In this document: piece by piece, positions 3,366-26,275 of the stretch | Layout of the letters: the number at the start of each line of letters is the position of its first letter | Numbering within the stretch: the first letter of the stretch is position 1 | Source: a virus | Strand: one strand, 5' to 3' | DNA length: 26,275 nucleotides | Virus record (IMG/VR): IMGVR_UViG_3300017740_002194 | Coordinates: 1 to 26,275 of that record | Translations under genes and position numbers: made by a program | The notes under the pieces: model-generated | Told to the model about the DNA's origin: nothing | Database searches by the model: none | Seen by the model: only the letters and a program-made list of their open reading frames with translations

Positions 3366-3571
3366 TAGAGATCTTAGGATATGTCGCAACAGCAATAGTA
3401 ATATTTTCATTTACTATAAGAAATTTAAAATGGTTAAGAATAGCCAATACTATAGGTTGTTTTTTATTTACAGTCTACGGTTTACTTCTCTTAAACATGC
3501 CTATTATAATTACAAATACGGCAATTATGATTATAAATTTGTATCAAATATCAGAAACTTTAAAAAAGTAA
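3362..3571 (+). CDS. YgjV-like small membrane protein, 69 aa
   Basis: ATG 3362 (MIEILGYVAT) forms an ATGA overlap with the zinc-finger gene, so the upstream in-frame ATG at 3314, inside that gene, is rejected. Three short hydrophobic segments follow each other (GYVATAIVIFSFTIR, IANTIGCFLFTVYGLLLL, IIITNTAIMIINLYQI) with the polar joint RNLKWLRI between the first two. This arrangement resembles the YgjV family of bacterial inner-membrane proteins, whose function is not settled. The C-terminal KK residues run up to repeat copy 4. Confidence 0.6.
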   Translation: MIEILGYVATAIVIFSFTIRNLKWLRIANTIGCFLFTVYGLLLLNMPIIITNTAIMIINLYQISETLKK

Positions 3572-3578
3572 AAAAAGT

Positions 3579-3645
3579 GAAAAAAGTTGCCTCAAAATTT
3601 TCACGGGTCAAAGATTATAGTTATATTAGTATTATAATTAAAACT
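3579..3645 (+). promoter_or_regulatory. Repeated upstream element, copy 4
   Basis: Runs GAAAAAAGTTGCC, TCAAAATTTTCACGG, the GTCAAAG core (3607) and TTATATTAGTATTATAAT. It is nearly identical to copy 2 over its whole length and, like it, lacks the TTGTTCATAAC arm. It begins 7 bases after the previous stop and ends 9 bases before the ATG at 3655. Confidence 0.75.
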
Positions 3646-3654
3646 TAAAACAAT

Positions 3655-10853: not shown

Positions 10854-10936
10854 TTGTTCATAACTTTTAGGAAAAAAAGTGCCTAAAAGTTTTCACGGGT
10901 CAAAGATTATAGTTATATTAGTATTATAATTAAAAC
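10853..10936 (+). promoter_or_regulatory. Repeated upstream element, copy 5 (full length)
   Basis: A full-length copy: TTGTTCATAACTTTT, AGGAAAAAAAGTGCC, TAAAAGTTTTCACGG, the GTCAAAG core at 10899 and TTATATTAGTATTATAAT. The A/T palindrome is kept in a changed form (ACTTTT/AAAAGT), suggesting the pairing or its symmetry matters. The next ATG (10943) follows after six bases. Confidence 0.8.
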
Positions 10937-10942
10937 TTAAAC

Positions 10943-11137: not shown

Positions 11138-11220
11138 ATTGTTCATAACTTTTGAAAAAAAGTGCCCAAAAATTTTCACGGGTCAAAGATTATAGTTATA
11201 TTAGTATTATAAATTAAAAA
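11138..11220 (+). promoter_or_regulatory. Repeated upstream element, copy 6 (before sigma factor)
   Basis: A full-length copy: TTGTTCATAACTTTTG, AAAAAAAGTGCCC, AAAAATTTTCACGG, the GTCAAAG core at 11182 and TTATATTAGTATTATAAAT. It begins at the stop of the preceding gene. The leader to the sigma-factor ATG is longer than for the other copies (17 bases, with CGTAAAAAACAATAAAT), similar to the CGTAAAAAA after copy 3. Confidence 0.8.
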
Positions 11221-11237
11221 CGTAAAAAACAATAAAT

Positions 11238-19201: not shown

Positions 19202-19783
19202 ATGAGTCCAACAGAGTTATACGAAGCGAAGCCCTATAAGATGGGAAAGATCTTAGTTTTTGACTTAGATGATACCATCGTTGTTACACCAGCTAAAATT
19301 CAAGTTAAGAATAAAATGACTGGCGAAACGTTTTCTATTACTCCAGAAGAGTTTAATACTTTTCAAAAAAAACCAAATCAAATCCTAAGTTTCGAAGAAT
19401 TTAAAAGTCTTGAAATAATGAAAGCTGGTAAGCTTATTAATTATTATTTTAAAATACTAAAGAAGGCATATAAAATGAGAATAGCAATAGGGATTGTTAC
19501 AGCAAGGGATGATAAAAAAATGATTTACACTTGGTTAAAAGATCATTTAAAAACTCCAGTTGACAGCGATTTGATATTTGCAGTCAACGATCCAGTACAT
19601 GGATTTAAAGGAGATATTGCAGAAAAAAAGAAAGAAGCATTTAGAGAAATTATAAAGCAGGGATTTAACGACCTACAATTTTATGACGATGATGACAATA
19701 ATTTAAGGTTAGTAAAGTCTCTGGAAGAAGAATTTCCAATGATAAATATATCAACAATTAAAGCATTTAAGTCTAGAGGATGA
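19202..19783 (+). CDS. HAD-superfamily phosphatase-like protein
   Basis: 193 residues with VFDLDDTIVVTP (D21 and D23, motif I), IGIVTARDD (T100, motif II) and LQFYDDDDNNL (D162-165, motif IV). It resembles a phage HAD group with a TGE-x-F-x-[IL]TPEEF insertion between motifs I and II, here at residues 40-51. The substrate is unknown; a nucleotide or nucleic-acid phosphate is plausible. The start may be ATG 19202 or ATG 19241 (MGKILVFDLDDT), the latter suiting the promoter motif better. It overlaps the CCA-adding enzyme gene by four bases (ATGA). Confidence 0.8.
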   Translation: MSPTELYEAKPYKMGKILVFDLDDTIVVTPAKIQVKNKMTGETFSITPEEFNTFQKKPNQILSFEEFKSLEIMKAGKLINYYFKILKKAYKMRIAIGIVTARDDKKMIYTWLKDHLKTPVDSDLIFAVNDPVHGFKGDIAEKKKEAFREIIKQGFNDLQFYDDDDNNLRLVKSLEEEFPMINISTIKAFKSRG

Positions 19784-20937
19784 GAAGATTAAAACTATAT
19801 GAAGAATTTAGTCTCATCCAAGAGGCTCAACAAAAGCTTAAATTAAACGTCCCAAAAGACGTTAAAAAATTACATGCACTTTTCAAGAAAAATGGAAAGG
19901 AATTGTATATAGTGGGAGGAGCAGTTAGGGACGCTCTTCTTGGAACAACACCGAAAGACTTCGACTTGGCGACAGATGCGTTGCCGGAAGAAGTAGTAGC
20001 CATAATTAAGTCCGGAGGCTACGATACAATAGGTGAGGTTGGCCAACAGTTCGGCGTTGTTATTGTGAAGACTCCTACTTTTAGGGAGGGTATGGAGATA
20101 GCTACGTTCAGGGAAGACATCGGAAAGGGTAGAAGACCTGATGCAGTCAAATATTCTACGATAGACGCCGACGTGTTGCGAAGGGACTTAACAATCAACG
20201 CACTCTTCTACGATATCGATAGAGAGGAAGTTGTAGATCTTGTGGGTGGCATTGCTGACATTCAGAGCAGCACCATCAGGACGGTAGGCAGGGCACAGGA
20301 GAGGTTCGACGAAGATCCCCTAAGAAAACTAAGAGCCTTAAGATTTGCAGGCCGCACAGGTAGCAAATTAGAAAAGAATACAGCAGAAGCAATTATTAGT
20401 GATAACAGTCTCAAAGGCGTAAGTCCAGAAAGAATTAGAGATGAATTTAAAAAGTCAGTAATTTCGGCAAAGTCAACTAAAAAATATTTAGAAATGGTTG
20501 AGGAGTTTAAACTATGGGGAGTAATGTTTCCAGATGTTAATATTAACAAGACGTTTATTGATAATAAAAATTGGATGATTCAAATTGCAACTCTATTTGG
20601 AGATAATGAAGTTGACACAATTAAGAAGAGATTAAATAAGCTTACATTTTCAAATGAGGAAATTGACACAGTTGTATTTTTAAAGAATTTACTGGATATT
20701 AAACCAGAAGAAATATTTGAACTCTATAAAAAATATCAAACAACAGATATAGATAAAAGAACTATCTTAGATTGGAGTCGCTTAAACAGATTAGACACAA
20801 GGATGGTAAAAGCATTCTTAAAATATAAGCCATCAACAGATGGTAGAACTGTAATGAAAGACTTTGGCGTTAAAGGGCCAGACATTGCACAAAAGATTAG
20901 AGAAATAGAAGCAGAGAAGTTTAGAGAGTTGTTATGA
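19780..20937 (+). CDS. cca: CCA-adding enzyme (class II tRNA nucleotidyltransferase) with a capsid-targeting-like leader
   Basis: 385 residues. The class II core is clear: LYIVGGAVRDALLG (43-55), KDFDLATD with D60 and D62 as metal ligands, ATFRED (108-113), LRRDLTINALFYDI (133-146) and RFDEDPLRKLRALRFAGR (175-192) with the EDxxR motif at 178-182 that selects C and A. No poly(A)-polymerase signature is seen, favouring CCA addition. Both phage tRNAs lack CCA. The first 16 residues (LKLYEEFSLIQEA part) resemble the T4 capsid-targeting leader. The bases encoding about residues 43-187 have nearly 49% GC, against about 29% just after. Confidence 0.88.
   Translation: MRRLKLYEEFSLIQEAQQKLKLNVPKDVKKLHALFKKNGKELYIVGGAVRDALLGTTPKDFDLATDALPEEVVAIIKSGGYDTIGEVGQQFGVVIVKTPTFREGMEIATFREDIGKGRRPDAVKYSTIDADVLRRDLTINALFYDIDREEVVDLVGGIADIQSSTIRTVGRAQERFDEDPLRKLRALRFAGRTGSKLEKNTAEAIISDNSLKGVSPERIRDEFKKSVISAKSTKKYLEMVEEFKLWGVMFPDVNINKTFIDNKNWMIQIATLFGDNEVDTIKKRLNKLTFSNEEIDTVVFLKNLLDIKPEEIFELYKKYQTTDIDKRTILDWSRLNRLDTRMVKAFLKYKPSTDGRTVMKDFGVKGPDIAQKIREIEAEKFRELL
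19905..20340 (+). other. Higher-GC segment inside the CCA-adding enzyme gene
   Basis: Counting by hand, bases 19921-20340 hold 204 G+C of 420 (48.6%), while 20341-20760 hold 121 of 420 (28.8%) and 19861-19920 hold 18 of 60. Codons such as AGG, GGC, GTG, GAC and CGA are frequent here and rare elsewhere. The frame is unbroken across both edges. The segment corresponds to the catalytic head domain, so intragenic recombination from a less AT-rich source is the simplest reading. Confidence 0.85.
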
Positions 20938-22059: not shown

Positions 22060-23898
22060 ATGGAAAAATATCATATTATAACTAGATGCACTAGGTTGCA
22101 AAACCTTTTGCAAATTAAAGAGAATGTATATAATTGCTCTGAAAATATAGAAATAAATTGGCATCTTATATTTGATGTAGGTCCATTAAAAGACATAGAC
22201 GCTGAACTTTTAGCAGAATTAACAGAAAAAGAAACTACAAATGTTTATTTTGTAGAAGGAACTAAAAAAGGACTATTATATCCTGAAGTTTCTAATTTAA
22301 TTTCTAAAATAAAAGAAGGATGGATTTATTTATTAGATGATGATAATATTTTACACGAAGACTTTTATGAAGAAACTTTAAAAAGCATTATTAGTAATAA
22401 AGACAAATCAGTTCATATTTTTTCACAAAAGGTAGATGGAAAGGATTTTACAGGCTTAGATATAAGAGTAGCAAGTCCTGAAAATACAAAATGGCAAGGT
22501 ATTGATATTGCACAAATGCTTATTGATAGAACTGTATTTAATGATTTTAAATTTGAGGCTAATTATTCAGCAGATGGATTTTTTATAGAAAAGGTATACG
22601 CAGATCGACCTGATAAATTTATATGGATAGATAAGATTTTATCATATTATAATTATTTAGAAAAAGATTCTACTCCTAAATTACCTAGAATTTTACATAT
22701 GGGTCCTAAGAAAAAAGAATTAAAGACTGGTATAATAGCAAAGGGAGCTGCTGTTGAACTTGAAATTTTATATAGAGAAAATGATAACAACATAATTAAA
22801 GATTTATATGAATTTAATCCAGATGCTATAGTAACTGAAGGAAAATCATGGAAAGATTTTCCTAAATTAGCCAGTCTACCTTTACAGTTTAGAAGAAAAT
22901 GGATAAACCTTAAAGAACCTAAAAATAATTTAGGAGACATTGCATATAGGGTTGCAACTGCATCAATGTTAGATCCAACTAATTTAGATGATCAAACAAT
23001 GATCTCATTTTTTACTCCAATTTATAACACTGGAGATAAATTATGGGAAACATATGATTCTTTTAGAAAACAAACTTATCAAAATATAGAATGGGTTTTA
23101 ATGAATGATTCTACAGATGGAGGTAAAACTTTAAAGATAGCTGAAAAAATAGCAAGTGTAGATCCAAGAGTTAAAGTATATGATTTTAGAGAAAAAAGTA
23201 AAGGAAATATTGGTGAAGTTAAATGGAGAGCATGTGCAATGGCTAGAGGATATATTGTAGCAGAGTTAGATCATGATGATCTTTTAGTAAAAGATTGTGC
23301 AGAGTATTTACACAAAGCTGCTCAAAAACATCCTGAATGCGGATTCTTTTACAATGATACAGCATTGGTTAATGAGAAATGGGAATCACAGAAATATCCT
23401 ATACCATTCGCGTTACATTATGGAAGTTATAGAACTGAGACATATGATGGAAAAGAATTAGCTGTTGTTAATCAGCAAAATATAAACCCAAAAACAATTA
23501 GACATATTGTAGGGGTTCCTAACCATGTTAGAGCGTGGAGAAGATCTACTTATTTTGAAATAGGAGGACATAATAGAAGCTTTACAGTAGCAGACGATTA
23601 TGAATTATGCGTAAGGACATTTCTTAAAACAAAAATATGTAAAATACCAAGATTAGGCTATATTCAATTTCTTTATGAAGGAGAAAGAAGAAATACACAT
23701 GATCTTTCTAGAGCAGATATACAAAGAAGAGTAAGAAGTATACAGGCACATTATGACTTGCAAATTAAAGAAAGATTTGAAGAATTAGGTTTAGAAGATT
23801 GGGCTTATGCGGAAATGCCACAATATGCGACGTTTGCAAAACCAAGATTTGGAGACGAAGAAGGATACGCTAACGTCATATATAAAGAGGAAGAGTAA
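22060..23898 (+). CDS. Tandem glycosyltransferase (two GT-A domains), 612 aa
   Basis: Two sugar-transferase modules lie in one chain. The N-terminal one (about 1-205) begins YHIITRCTRLQNLLQI and has WIYLLDDDN with D93-95 as the metal-binding DxD. The C-terminal one (about 312-560) is a classical GT2 domain: MISFFTPIYNTGDKLWETY, IEWVLMNDSTDG, then VAELDHDDLLV (D404, D406, D407) and later WRRSTYFEIGGHN and ADDYELCVR. A linker of about 100 residues joins them. It would transfer nucleotide-activated sugars, perhaps to virion protein, phage DNA or host surface polymer. The RmlD-like and TagD-like genes could supply donors. It starts behind AATAAAATGG. Confidence 0.85.
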   Translation: MEKYHIITRCTRLQNLLQIKENVYNCSENIEINWHLIFDVGPLKDIDAELLAELTEKETTNVYFVEGTKKGLLYPEVSNLISKIKEGWIYLLDDDNILHEDFYEETLKSIISNKDKSVHIFSQKVDGKDFTGLDIRVASPENTKWQGIDIAQMLIDRTVFNDFKFEANYSADGFFIEKVYADRPDKFIWIDKILSYYNYLEKDSTPKLPRILHMGPKKKELKTGIIAKGAAVELEILYRENDNNIIKDLYEFNPDAIVTEGKSWKDFPKLASLPLQFRRKWINLKEPKNNLGDIAYRVATASMLDPTNLDDQTMISFFTPIYNTGDKLWETYDSFRKQTYQNIEWVLMNDSTDGGKTLKIAEKIASVDPRVKVYDFREKSKGNIGEVKWRACAMARGYIVAELDHDDLLVKDCAEYLHKAAQKHPECGFFYNDTALVNEKWESQKYPIPFALHYGSYRTETYDGKELAVVNQQNINPKTIRHIVGVPNHVRAWRRSTYFEIGGHNRSFTVADDYELCVRTFLKTKICKIPRLGYIQFLYEGERRNTHDLSRADIQRRVRSIQAHYDLQIKERFEELGLEDWAYAEMPQYATFAKPRFGDEEGYANVIYKEEE

Positions 23899-23950: not shown

Positions 23951-26275
23951 ATGGAAACTTTATTAACTTTAGAAATGGTTACTTTAGTCAATGGCTTAGC
24001 TATCCAACATTCTAGTGAATGGGAAGACTATTTAGAAATGAATGCACAAATTCATGGCATGACAAAAGAAGAATATACTGCACATTATTTAGGTACCCAA
24101 TGGCAAATGCAATGCATGGAAAGCTTACAAAGATTAACAGAAAAGAAAGTTACTCGTAAACAATTAGATAAAGCAATTAATGATCTTGCAAAAATTACAA
24201 ACGATCTTAAGAAAGTAGTAAAAGAGTGGGCAGCTGCAAGAGATGCTGGTAAAACTGAAAAGCAAGAAGAGAAACTACAGGAGCTTAAAAAACTAAATGA
24301 CGAAAAAACAGCTGCACAAAAAGTAGTTGATGATCACATTCAACAGTTAGATAAAAATGCAACTCTACAAACTACTGAAGATTTAGAATTAGACATTGAA
24401 TTACGTCCTAGTAGAGAAAAAATGTCAGTTACAATACCTGGTGATTTTGAAGATAATGAAGGAGAAAAAGCAGTAGAAGATGAATTAAAAAATCAAAATA
24501 AAGAATATAGAAGTTTTAGAGTTAAAGATATTAAATTAAAAGAATCCATGAATGAAAAGAAATCAGAATTTAAAGAAGGAGATAGAGTTAAGTTAACTCT
24601 TAAGGGACTTCAACAAATGAATAGAGACAGAACTCCTGGAATTTCAAATAACTATTCAAGAAGTTTAGGTAAAATTAAAGATAAAGATATCGCAGGTACG
24701 GTTGAAAAGGTTTTTCCTAGTGGAAGTATGAATGTAAGATTTGATGAAGTATTATATGATATTAAAGACTATATGGTAGTTAAAGAATCTGTAAATGAGA
24801 AATATAGAGAAACTAGACATCAATCGACTGATTTTTCTAAGCCCGGTAATGACGGCGATATTTACTTTTCAAAAAGAGAAGGTAGTGCTGTCGGTGTAAA
24901 AAGAGGAGATAAATTACAAATGATTTATGTTTTTCAAAAAGAACCTAAATTAGGAAAGATTCAAAAATCTGATAAACGTTGGGAAAACATGGGTCCAGCT
25001 TCTGAAAAACTTTTAATTGATTTAAGAGGTAGAGAAGAAGGTAAAATCTTATTTAAGTTTGTTTCCACACTTGAAGAATCAGTAAACGAAGCTGTTTCTA
25101 GATCTACTAAAATATATTGTGTTGCAACACCAGCTCCTCAAAAAATGTTAGTTCAAGAGTTAGAAAATATTTTTGGAGATGATTATAGAAATATAGTTAC
25201 AGAGTTCACGGACGATGAAGGTTATGAGTCAGTTTTATTATTTAATCTTACTAAAAATGATATCGCTTCAATACAAAAGAGAGTTGCTGATGTTTTAATT
25301 TGGGAATACTCAATTAAAAAGGGTAAAGAAATTATGGAATCTGTAAATGAAAAAATTCAAGTTGCAAGTTTAGAAGATGCAATAGAAGCTGAACAAGGTG
25401 GAGATTTAAACAAAAGACATTTAGATAAAATATTAAAACTTAAGGCAGCAAAAAGAATGCACACAATGACAAGGGCTGAAGAAAAAACTTATCAAGCAAT
25501 TCTTAGAAAATATAAAATTGCAATGGATGATGCACACGTTGGAGATATGATGGAAGCAATTGACATAGATATGATAAATACTGAATATGGCTTTTGGGGA
25601 ACTATGGCAGATTATCATGATGAAGAACAAGTAGAAATAGCAACCGAAGAAGCAATAACTATTTTAACAAGCAGGTATGGATTTACACAAGACGGAGTCT
25701 ATAACTTTTTAAATAGTAAATGGGGTAGAAAACTAGCTGATGAATATTTAGATGGTCAATACTATAATATGATAGATGCAATTGAAGCATTTACAAGACC
25801 ATCTACTTATAAAAAATACGCGAAACAATTTAACGAAGCGAAAGAAAATACTATGAAAAATTTACAAACATTAGAAAGTTTTATAAATGAAGATACTGTA
25901 GTTATGGATGCAATGGATCCTAAATCAAAGATACTTAAAAAACTTTTAAAGAAACATAAAGTTACAATGAAAGTTTTAGATCCTAATGGACCAAGTGGTT
26001 GGCCAGAAGTTGAGCTAACAGGTTCAAGAGAAGATCTACAAGCGGTTTTAGCATCTCCTGATGGATGGGACGATCCAGAACTTGGAGAGTATATTGAAGA
26101 AGCTAGTGCTGAAAAACTAGAAGAAAAGATTAAGGTTACTAAAGACGAATCGAAAGAAAATACTATGAAAAATTTACAAACATTAGAAAGTTTTATAAAT
26201 GAAGCTGCGCCTAAACTTAAAACAAGTAAAGAAGAAGCAGGTTTATTAAAACTAAGAGACGAAATACGTAGATCA
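23951..26275 (+). CDS. Giant modular protein with repeated ES-x-NE motifs (3' truncated by window edge)
   Basis: The frame is open for 775 codons and runs off the window. After a coiled-coil N-terminus (1-195), six motifs recur: ESMNEK (E198), ESVNEK (E279), ESVNEA (E376), ESVNEK (E463), ESFINED (E642) and ESFINEA (E746), mostly 81-104 residues apart. Between them lie different small domains: an SH3/KOW-like stretch (EGDRVKLTLKG, then GTVEKVFPSGSMNVRFDE), an alpha/beta segment (KIYCVATPAPQKMLVQELE) and helical parts. The last two motifs lie in MKNLQTLESFINE, which aligns with the T4 capsid-targeting leader MKTYQEFIAEA and ends in hydrophobic-x-Glu, the T4 prohead-protease cleavage pattern. 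A capsid-internal polyprotein is inferred. Confidence 0.8.
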   Translation, partial: METLLTLEMVTLVNGLAIQHSSEWEDYLEMNAQIHGMTKEEYTAHYLGTQWQMQCMESLQRLTEKKVTRKQLDKAINDLAKITNDLKKVVKEWAAARDAGKTEKQEEKLQELKKLNDEKTAAQKVVDDHIQQLDKNATLQTTEDLELDIELRPSREKMSVTIPGDFEDNEGEKAVEDELKNQNKEYRSFRVKDIKLKESMNEKKSEFKEGDRVKLTLKGLQQMNRDRTPGISNNYSRSLGKIKDKDIAGTVEKVFPSGSMNVRFDEVLYDIKDYMVVKESVNEKYRETRHQSTDFSKPGNDGDIYFSKREGSAVGVKRGDKLQMIYVFQKEPKLGKIQKSDKRWENMGPASEKLLIDLRGREEGKILFKFVSTLEESVNEAVSRSTKIYCVATPAPQKMLVQELENIFGDDYRNIVTEFTDDEGYESVLLFNLTKNDIASIQKRVADVLIWEYSIKKGKEIMESVNEKIQVASLEDAIEAEQGGDLNKRHLDKILKLKAAKRMHTMTRAEEKTYQAILRKYKIAMDDAHVGDMMEAIDIDMINTEYGFWGTMADYHDEEQVEIATEEAITILTSRYGFTQDGVYNFLNSKWGRKLADEYLDGQYYNMIDAIEAFTRPSTYKKYAKQFNEAKENTMKNLQTLESFINEDTVVMDAMDPKSKILKKLLKKHKVTMKVLDPNGPSGWPEVELTGSREDLQAVLASPDGWDDPELGEYIEEASAEKLEEKIKVTKDESKENTMKNLQTLESFINEAAPKLKTSKEEAGLLKLRDEIRRS
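25839..25892 (+). repeat. 54-bp direct repeat, unit 1
   Basis: Identical over 54 bases to 26151-26204 and in the same reading frame, encoding KENTMKNLQTLESFINE. The match extends a few bases upstream with a mismatch. The two units are 312 bases (104 codons) apart. Confidence 0.95.
26151..26204 (+). repeat. 54-bp direct repeat, unit 2
   Basis: Second identical unit, encoding the same KENTMKNLQTLESFINE, followed by AAPKLKTS instead of DTVVMDAM. Perfect base identity, including third positions, points to recent duplication or gene conversion. Confidence 0.95.

Follow-up and report, generated by a model that had tools for sequence, protein, structure and literature searches.

The last part of a viral DNA stretch of 26,275 nt (IMG/VR record IMGVR_UViG_3300017740_002194, positions 1–26,275; hereafter the window) is occupied by an open reading frame (ORF) composed of seven modules separated by short linkers that end in glutamate. 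We consider it probable that this array encodes a capsid-cargo polyprotein of a T4-like marine phage that is targeted to the head, cut by the prohead protease and evolves by cassette exchange at the cut sites, with targeting and cleavage deduced from sequence features. A perfect repeat, the linkers themselves, gain and loss of whole modules at these linkers, stand-alone genes headed by a similar leader, and a T4-type protease in the lineage are firmly established by direct observation.

The repeat consists of two identical 54-bp copies in frame with the array ORF (Table 1), their starts 312 bp apart and 258 bp lying between them, which confirmed with exact coordinates the observation of the sequence-only reading that each holds an in-frame ATG followed by a targeting-like peptide. 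Each copy comprises 14 bp of A-rich sequence, the ATG (positions 25853 and 26165, corresponding to residues 635 and 739), the codons for the leader MKNLQTLESFINE, and the first base of the next codon. When extended to 25833–25892 and 26145–26204, the copies agree at 59 of 60 bases (one mismatch). Among the near-perfect direct repeats listed for the window, the 54-bp pair is the longest, and a rough estimate places the probability of a perfect 54-bp match arising by chance in 26 kb at the window's AT content at <1e-18.

Two other IMG/VR genomes, G001 (3300028131_000823, 204,977 bp; locus L003) and G002 (3300028284_000003, 107,642 bp; locus L004), hold both copies at the same 312-bp spacing, and a joining error is therefore not the source of the repeat. 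That the window contig stops 71 bp past the second copy would have suited an assembly artefact, i.e. a collapsed or wrongly joined repeat, as had been considered from the sequence alone; this explanation is rejected and hardly credible, given that the same structure is present in two contigs of other metagenomes that are 17–26% different just upstream.

The L004 copies match those of the window at 60 of 60 bases each, while L003 deviates at 1 of 60 bases in copy 1 and at 6 of 60 in copy 2, with five differing sites in the upstream stretch of the latter. From copy 1 to the contig end, identity among the three genomes amounts to ~97–99% (L003 copy 2 excepted), compared with 83% (L003) and 74% (L004) identity to the window over the 253 bases that immediately precede copy 1; the change thus falls close to the leader. 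By this comparison, the duplication predates the split of the three genomes. A recent duplication as the origin, as initially proposed, is rejected and was not borne out by G001 and G002, which already possess both copies. The proposed alternative of gene conversion fared better: a codon that is CAA (Gln) in all copies of the window and L004 is GAA (Glu) in the two L003 copies, suggesting that copies have likely been homogenised within genomes, as judged from few sites (this shared one and the short upstream stretch). Recent tandem duplication or replication slippage without any function would account for the perfect identity over 54 bp in a window ORF whose other linkers vary at silent sites, but it is very improbable in view of the conserved spacing in G001 and G002 and of the module between the copies, relatives of which were found in 17 of the 21 records searched, mostly in other contexts.

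Linkers of the ES..NE type at residues 198, 279, 376, 463, 642 and 746 delimit the modules of the array ORF. Module order is 0-1-2-3-4-5-6 in the window, 0-2-4-5-6 in G001 and 0-1-4-5-6 in G002. The shared modules 1, 2 and 5 are equal in length in the window and its relatives, and module 0 of the window is 89% identical over 150 aa to module 0 of G001 and G002. Modules 0 and 4 differ in length between the window and its relatives, and therefore have undergone inner changes that no linker explains. G001 and G002 encode a second array, the shared modules of which are 98–99% identical, with a 172-aa module exclusive to G001 and a 116-aa module exclusive to G002. The arrays of the window, G001 and G002 thus differ by whole modules (81, 97, 87, 116 and 172 aa), and the boundaries of these differences fall exactly at linkers.

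Table 1. Positions of the array ORF, its modules and the 54-bp repeat in the window. Met-leader, linker-type peptide starting with methionine.
Feature	Position	Strand	Description
Array ORF	23951–26275	+	775 aa, no stop before contig end, seven modules
Module 0	23951–24556	+	N-terminal, coiled-coil-like by eye; closing linker ESMNE 24542–24556
Module 1	24557–24799	+	81 aa; closing linker ESVNE 24785–24799; in G002 array, not in G001 array
Module 2	24800–25090	+	97 aa; closing linker ESVNE 25076–25090; in G001 array, not in G002 array
Module 3	25091–25351	+	87 aa; closing linker ESVNE 25337–25351; in neither G001 nor G002 array
Module 4	25352–25891	+	180 aa; phrog_8020-like region; closes with first Met-leader
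Module 5	25892–26203	+	104 aa, VVMDAMDPK module; closes with second Met-leader
Module 6 (start)	26204–26275	+	AAPKLKTSKEEAG..., cut by contig end; 59 aa in G001 and G002
Repeat copy 1	25839–25892	+	54 bp: A-rich upstream stretch, ATG and leader MKNLQTLESFINE
Repeat copy 2	26151–26204	+	54 bp, identical to copy 1

Among the loci retrieved, 75 ORFs with at least three linker motifs were found and reduced to 26 non-redundant ones and, after dropping two protease-scaffold ORFs and L110 9318–10454, to 23 array proteins. The linker pattern, which like the strict leader pattern used below was devised with examples from these genomes already in view (plus T4 leaders in the case of the leader pattern), occurred 77 times in this set; shuffled sequences gave 0.755 occurrences on average and at most 3. 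Among 299 homology ends across the 23 arrays, 25.8% lay no more than 8 aa from a linker, compared with 7.9% in a circular-shift null (s.d. 2.0, maximum 16.1% in 1000), a statistic to be read with the related arrays not being independent samples and with shared linker residues potentially drawing homology ends to linkers; the exact pairwise comparisons are therefore the stronger evidence.

Linkers of the array ORF follow an E-S-x-(x)-[NT]-E type, with the Met-leader junctions reading ESFINE|D and ESFINE|A, and MKNLQTLESFINE resembles the capsid-targeting leader of T4 IPII and IPIII (MKTYQEFIAE|A). The prohead protease of T4 cuts after hydrophobic-x-E; T4 IPII and IPIII contain FIAE|A and T4 gp23 contains LTE|A, which we take to be the cut positions of these proteins. 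The window leaders likewise end in hydrophobic-x-E, one of them before Ala, and at the sequence level the array consists of several units split by repeated protease-site-like motifs. In 80 distinct linker contexts, where P1 Glu and the hydrophobic P3 were set by construction and P1′ was free in the search pattern, P1′ was Ala in 37 and Lys in 22, as opposed to Ala following 118 of 1520 other Glu residues; at the LRTE|AAPK junction, P3 is not hydrophobic. Many linkers, e.g. ESVNE and ESMNE, are shorter than the T4 leader and would therefore be cut sites at most, not targeting signals. Alternatively, linkers might be hinges that stay uncut within a long modular protein, structural or ejected, without targeting or cleavage at these sites and with the repeat as a by-product of recombination. 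The long linker-free stretches of the array ORF and the variable distance between linkers (5 to 378 aa across arrays) would fit such hinges, yet the Ala enrichment at P1′ and the occurrence of the same motif at the N-terminus of stand-alone genes, including one between the portal and S77 protease genes, make this reading unlikely.

Serine codon usage distinguishes the Met-leaders from other linkers. The serine of ES[VILM] linkers was encoded by TCN in 58 of 58 cases and that of all eight Met-leader copies by AGT, as in two further ESF linkers, with six ESF linkers using TCN; over the entire array ORFs, 742 serine codons were TCN versus 267 AGY. Since one silent change cannot join TCN and AGY, the Met-leaders look like a separate DNA lineage, which suggests that they are gene leaders fused into the arrays. 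The codons of stand-alone ESF leaders (9 AGY, 5 TCN) are consistent with this, albeit not proof. Whole internal Met-leaders are also found elsewhere, namely in L036 (MKKVKLFEEFLNE), L041 (MKKLQTLESFVNE), L037 and L110.

The ESFINEA peptide was rejected as the sole marker of leader genes (N-terminal in 6 of 30 other ESFINEA ORFs, not in the remaining 24), and a loose leader pattern, which hit 32 of 467 ORFs including some clear false hits, was replaced by a stricter one, [FY]xx[FW][IVLMF]xE near the N-terminus. Counts refer to ORFs of at least 80 aa (at least 60 aa for L055) with nested ORFs removed, and expected numbers derive from the internal rate of the pattern; PTm1, crAss001, G027 and G038 played no part in drawing up the patterns. 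Strict leaders headed 11 of 204 ORFs in G001 (0.77 expected), 7 of 119 in G002 (0.54 expected) and 5 of 171 in G038 (0.52 expected). Counts were high in L055 (12 of 21 ORFs) and in the 482-kb record G027 (36 of 625 versus 2.44 expected, ~5 of the 36 being accidental by eye), partly by selection, as both had been reached via the ESFINEA scan. The 62–111 kb region of T4 yielded 2 of 58 ORFs, which were exactly IPII and IPIII, whereas IPI, the leader of which differs, was missed. None of the window's own 33 ORFs and none of 88 in crAss001 (97 kb) carried a strict leader; the single hit among 99 ORFs in the 94.7 of 224.7 kb of PTm1 searched was not leader-like by eye, and in this part of PTm1, a phage with a fused protease-scaffold, neither leaders nor arrays were seen.

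One of the G001 genes begins with MKTYEEFINEA, compared with MKTYQEFIAEA in T4 IPII and IPIII. The comparison with related phages suggested by the sequence-only reading showed that stand-alone genes with such leaders are present there. The bodies of some of these genes have homologues among the internal modules: the G001 gene MNNIKNFNDFINESQEINEGTRSQFGK... matches module 218–351 of the L083 array (63% identity) and L055 3394–3942 matches module 606–677 of L109 (47%). Together with the recurrent internal Met-leaders and the serine codons, these homologues lend support to the earlier idea that leaders were fused or copied between modules. No G027 ORF contained three linkers; arrays and stand-alone leader genes seem to be alternative arrangements.

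Several leader-headed genes were found in clusters or had recognisable domains. L055 1112–13477 is the tandem cluster in which 12 of 21 ORFs are leader-headed, among them genes for a ferritin-like (PF00210, E 2e-20) and a cytidylyltransferase-like (PF01467) protein. G027 harbors clusters of MKHIKLFE.FLNE-headed genes at 147–158, 265–270 and 458–477 kb (L138, L144, L154, L155); at 205 kb, another leader-headed gene encodes a DNA polymerase beta thumb domain. In the window, a tRNA nucleotidyltransferase gene (19780–20937; phrog_2244, E 1.7e-57) starts with MRRLKLYEEFSLIQE|AQQ, which is leader-like with an insertion, and its product is possibly packaged into the head.

The genomic neighborhood links leaders to head genes. 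In both G001 and G002, a leader-headed gene (MKIKTFNQFITEA...) has a portal-family gene (phrog_213, E 1e-50, as tested in G001) on one side and the S77 protease gene, in turn followed by gp23, on the other. With the annotated T4 order being 20-67-68-21-22-23, this gene occupies the slot of T4 gp67/68 (prohead core). The protease is part of a 632-aa ORF; in PTm1, ORF-300 is annotated as 'prohead core scaffolding protein and protease'. When aligned with T4 gp21, the G001 S77 protein shows GEL-x-HP and SSR as invariant motifs, which presumably hold the catalytic His and Ser. S77 (PF03420) was detected in all 16 leader- or array-bearing records of at least 100 kb, many of them close strains, and in 23 of 47 records of all sizes (4 of 22 in one set, 19 of 25 in the other). 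The 25-record set comprises 6 of 32 new loci of the ESFINEA scan (N-terminal leader), 17 of 29 and 2 of 8 loci from two further sets, with many of the 17 being close strains of one phage. No match to gp23 or S77 was found in the window record, a 26-kb fragment. Relatives of module 6 (AAPKLK...) occur in six other T4-like records as part of a gene that starts with MKL[SR]NMINE, where the similarity starts after TE|; in L117 this gene directly follows the S77 gene and precedes scaffold-like and gp23-like genes (named by eye).

The closest relative of G001 gp23 is a 462-kb uncultured phage record (49.7%), followed by Lak phages, other huge uncultured phages and PTm1. Visual inspection of gp23 from L028, L029, L030 and L031 revealed an N-terminal block (NPGM..GGMG...FP....GSGD.PAG) shared with the genes at L009 7795, L020 8402, L108 11548, L110 9318 and L050 3883, a second shared head-type N-terminal motif.

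The array ORF had no match in Pfam or PADLOC, and its PHROG matches were restricted to families of unknown function. A tblastn search with the window array and the L011 array against 50,697 phage records returned no array relative, nor were relatives of module 5 found among cellular genome contigs. An AlphaFold2 model of module 5 (mean pLDDT 78) matched KH domains best in the PDB (E 0.0098, TM ~0.5) and, among viral proteins, an 88-aa Erwinia phage protein (E 2e-5); as these matches are too weak for naming one, a function based on the fold was rejected. L023 6307–6798 encodes a tandem pair of near-identical modules that both end in ESVV[NT]E and are distantly related (38%) to module 5 of the window. 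Just upstream of the array, 22060–23898 encodes a 612-aa protein with a glycosyltransferase family 2 domain (PF00535, E 8.9e-19). The window further contains six copies of a 79-nt element (TTGCC...GGGTCAAAGATTATAGTTATATTAGTATTATAA; 559–637, 1322–1400, 1729–1807, 3570–3648, 10862–10940 and 11145–11223), 78–92% alike to the reference copy and probably representing a phage promoter family.

The ATGs within the repeat might serve as working internal starts, giving nested or separate leader-headed products from one mRNA. Such use is possible and compatible with the polyprotein reading, and there is precedent in T4 gene 21, annotated with a shorter product from an internal start; both copies, like other arrays, retain the methionine, and the two window copies share the A-rich stretch ahead of it. 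However, when scored with a start-context matrix built from 277 predicted starts of the lineage, the two sites ranked only at the 14th and 22nd percentile among those starts and at the 71st and 85th percentile among 1687 internal ATGs, and the stretch upstream of L003 copy 2 differs at five sites. Functional internal starts thus appear rather doubtful.

In the polyprotein reading favored here, each E-S-x-(x)-[NT]-E linker, both MKNLQTLESFINE copies included, would be a prohead-protease site of the T4 gp21 type, and the Met-leader copies would be complete capsid-targeting leaders that formerly stood at the start of separate genes. The prohead core would take up the chain as the head assembles, and the chain would be cut after each (hydrophobic)-x-E into products of ~80–180 aa, which would stay in the head and be delivered together with the DNA. 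The linkers would double as recombination joints at which whole in-frame modules are gained, lost or exchanged; the repeat pair of the window would then delimit an in-frame excisable cassette of 312 bp, or 104 codons. More broadly, and with less assurance, we lean towards the view that T4-like giant phages combine numerous injected proteins in a single ORF, that a capsid-targeting/prohead-protease signal loads and separates them, and that the DNA of this signal acts as the recombination joint by which effectors are shuffled as in-frame cassettes.

If arrays are cut and packaged, tailed phages would have a route by which head cargo is made as a polyprotein and evolves through the exchange of cassettes at the protease sites. 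The leader signature could moreover serve to list injected cargo in uncultured giant phages and hence numerous candidates for anti-defence and takeover functions (G001 has 11 strict leader ORFs and the 482-kb G027 has 36, ~5 of which look accidental), because T4 internal proteins 1–3 are injected inhibitors of type IV restriction enzymes (PMC12373910). A search of openly readable literature found no description of capsid-targeted polyproteins; the one paper in it that contains both 'capsid targeting sequence' and 'polyprotein' applies the latter term to a displayed antigen, and a 2026 jumbo-phage review mentions none of 'capsid targeting', 'prohead protease' and 'polyprotein'. Since T-even internal proteins are already known to share little besides their leader (PMC12373910 and PMC3012670), the novelty lies in the array layout and in exchange at the linkers.

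As to known systems, a review (PMC9026906) describes T4 leaders as 10–19 residues long, targeting proteins to the core and removed by gp21, reports that Asp at position 10 of the IPIII leader blocks processing and not targeting, and proposes that the capsid-targeting sequence (CTS) may let T4-like phages package varied proteins. SPN3US and phiKZ resemble the present case in packaging large sets of ejection proteins processed by the prohead protease; in the available part of PMC5694885, however, several of their propeptides exceed 100 residues, compared with leaders of ~10–14 aa here, and no module arrays are described. P1 DarB similarly owes its entry into the head to an N-terminal signal, but this is one signal on one 250-kDa protein, with no repeated internal signals described in the accessible text of PMC9024508. 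The closest likeness is to T4 IPI, IPII and IPIII with their CTS, with which the lineage shares a short Met-leader ending in hydrophobic-x-E, Ala after the cut site, highly diverse bodies behind a common leader, and an S77 prohead protease. An N-terminal leader of 10–19 aa is found in the relatives' stand-alone genes, whereas both leaders of the window are internal. And while T4 devotes a separate small gene with one N-terminal leader to each protein, the leaders and cut-site-like linkers of the present ORF are internal, and it comprises seven modules in place of one small cargo protein.
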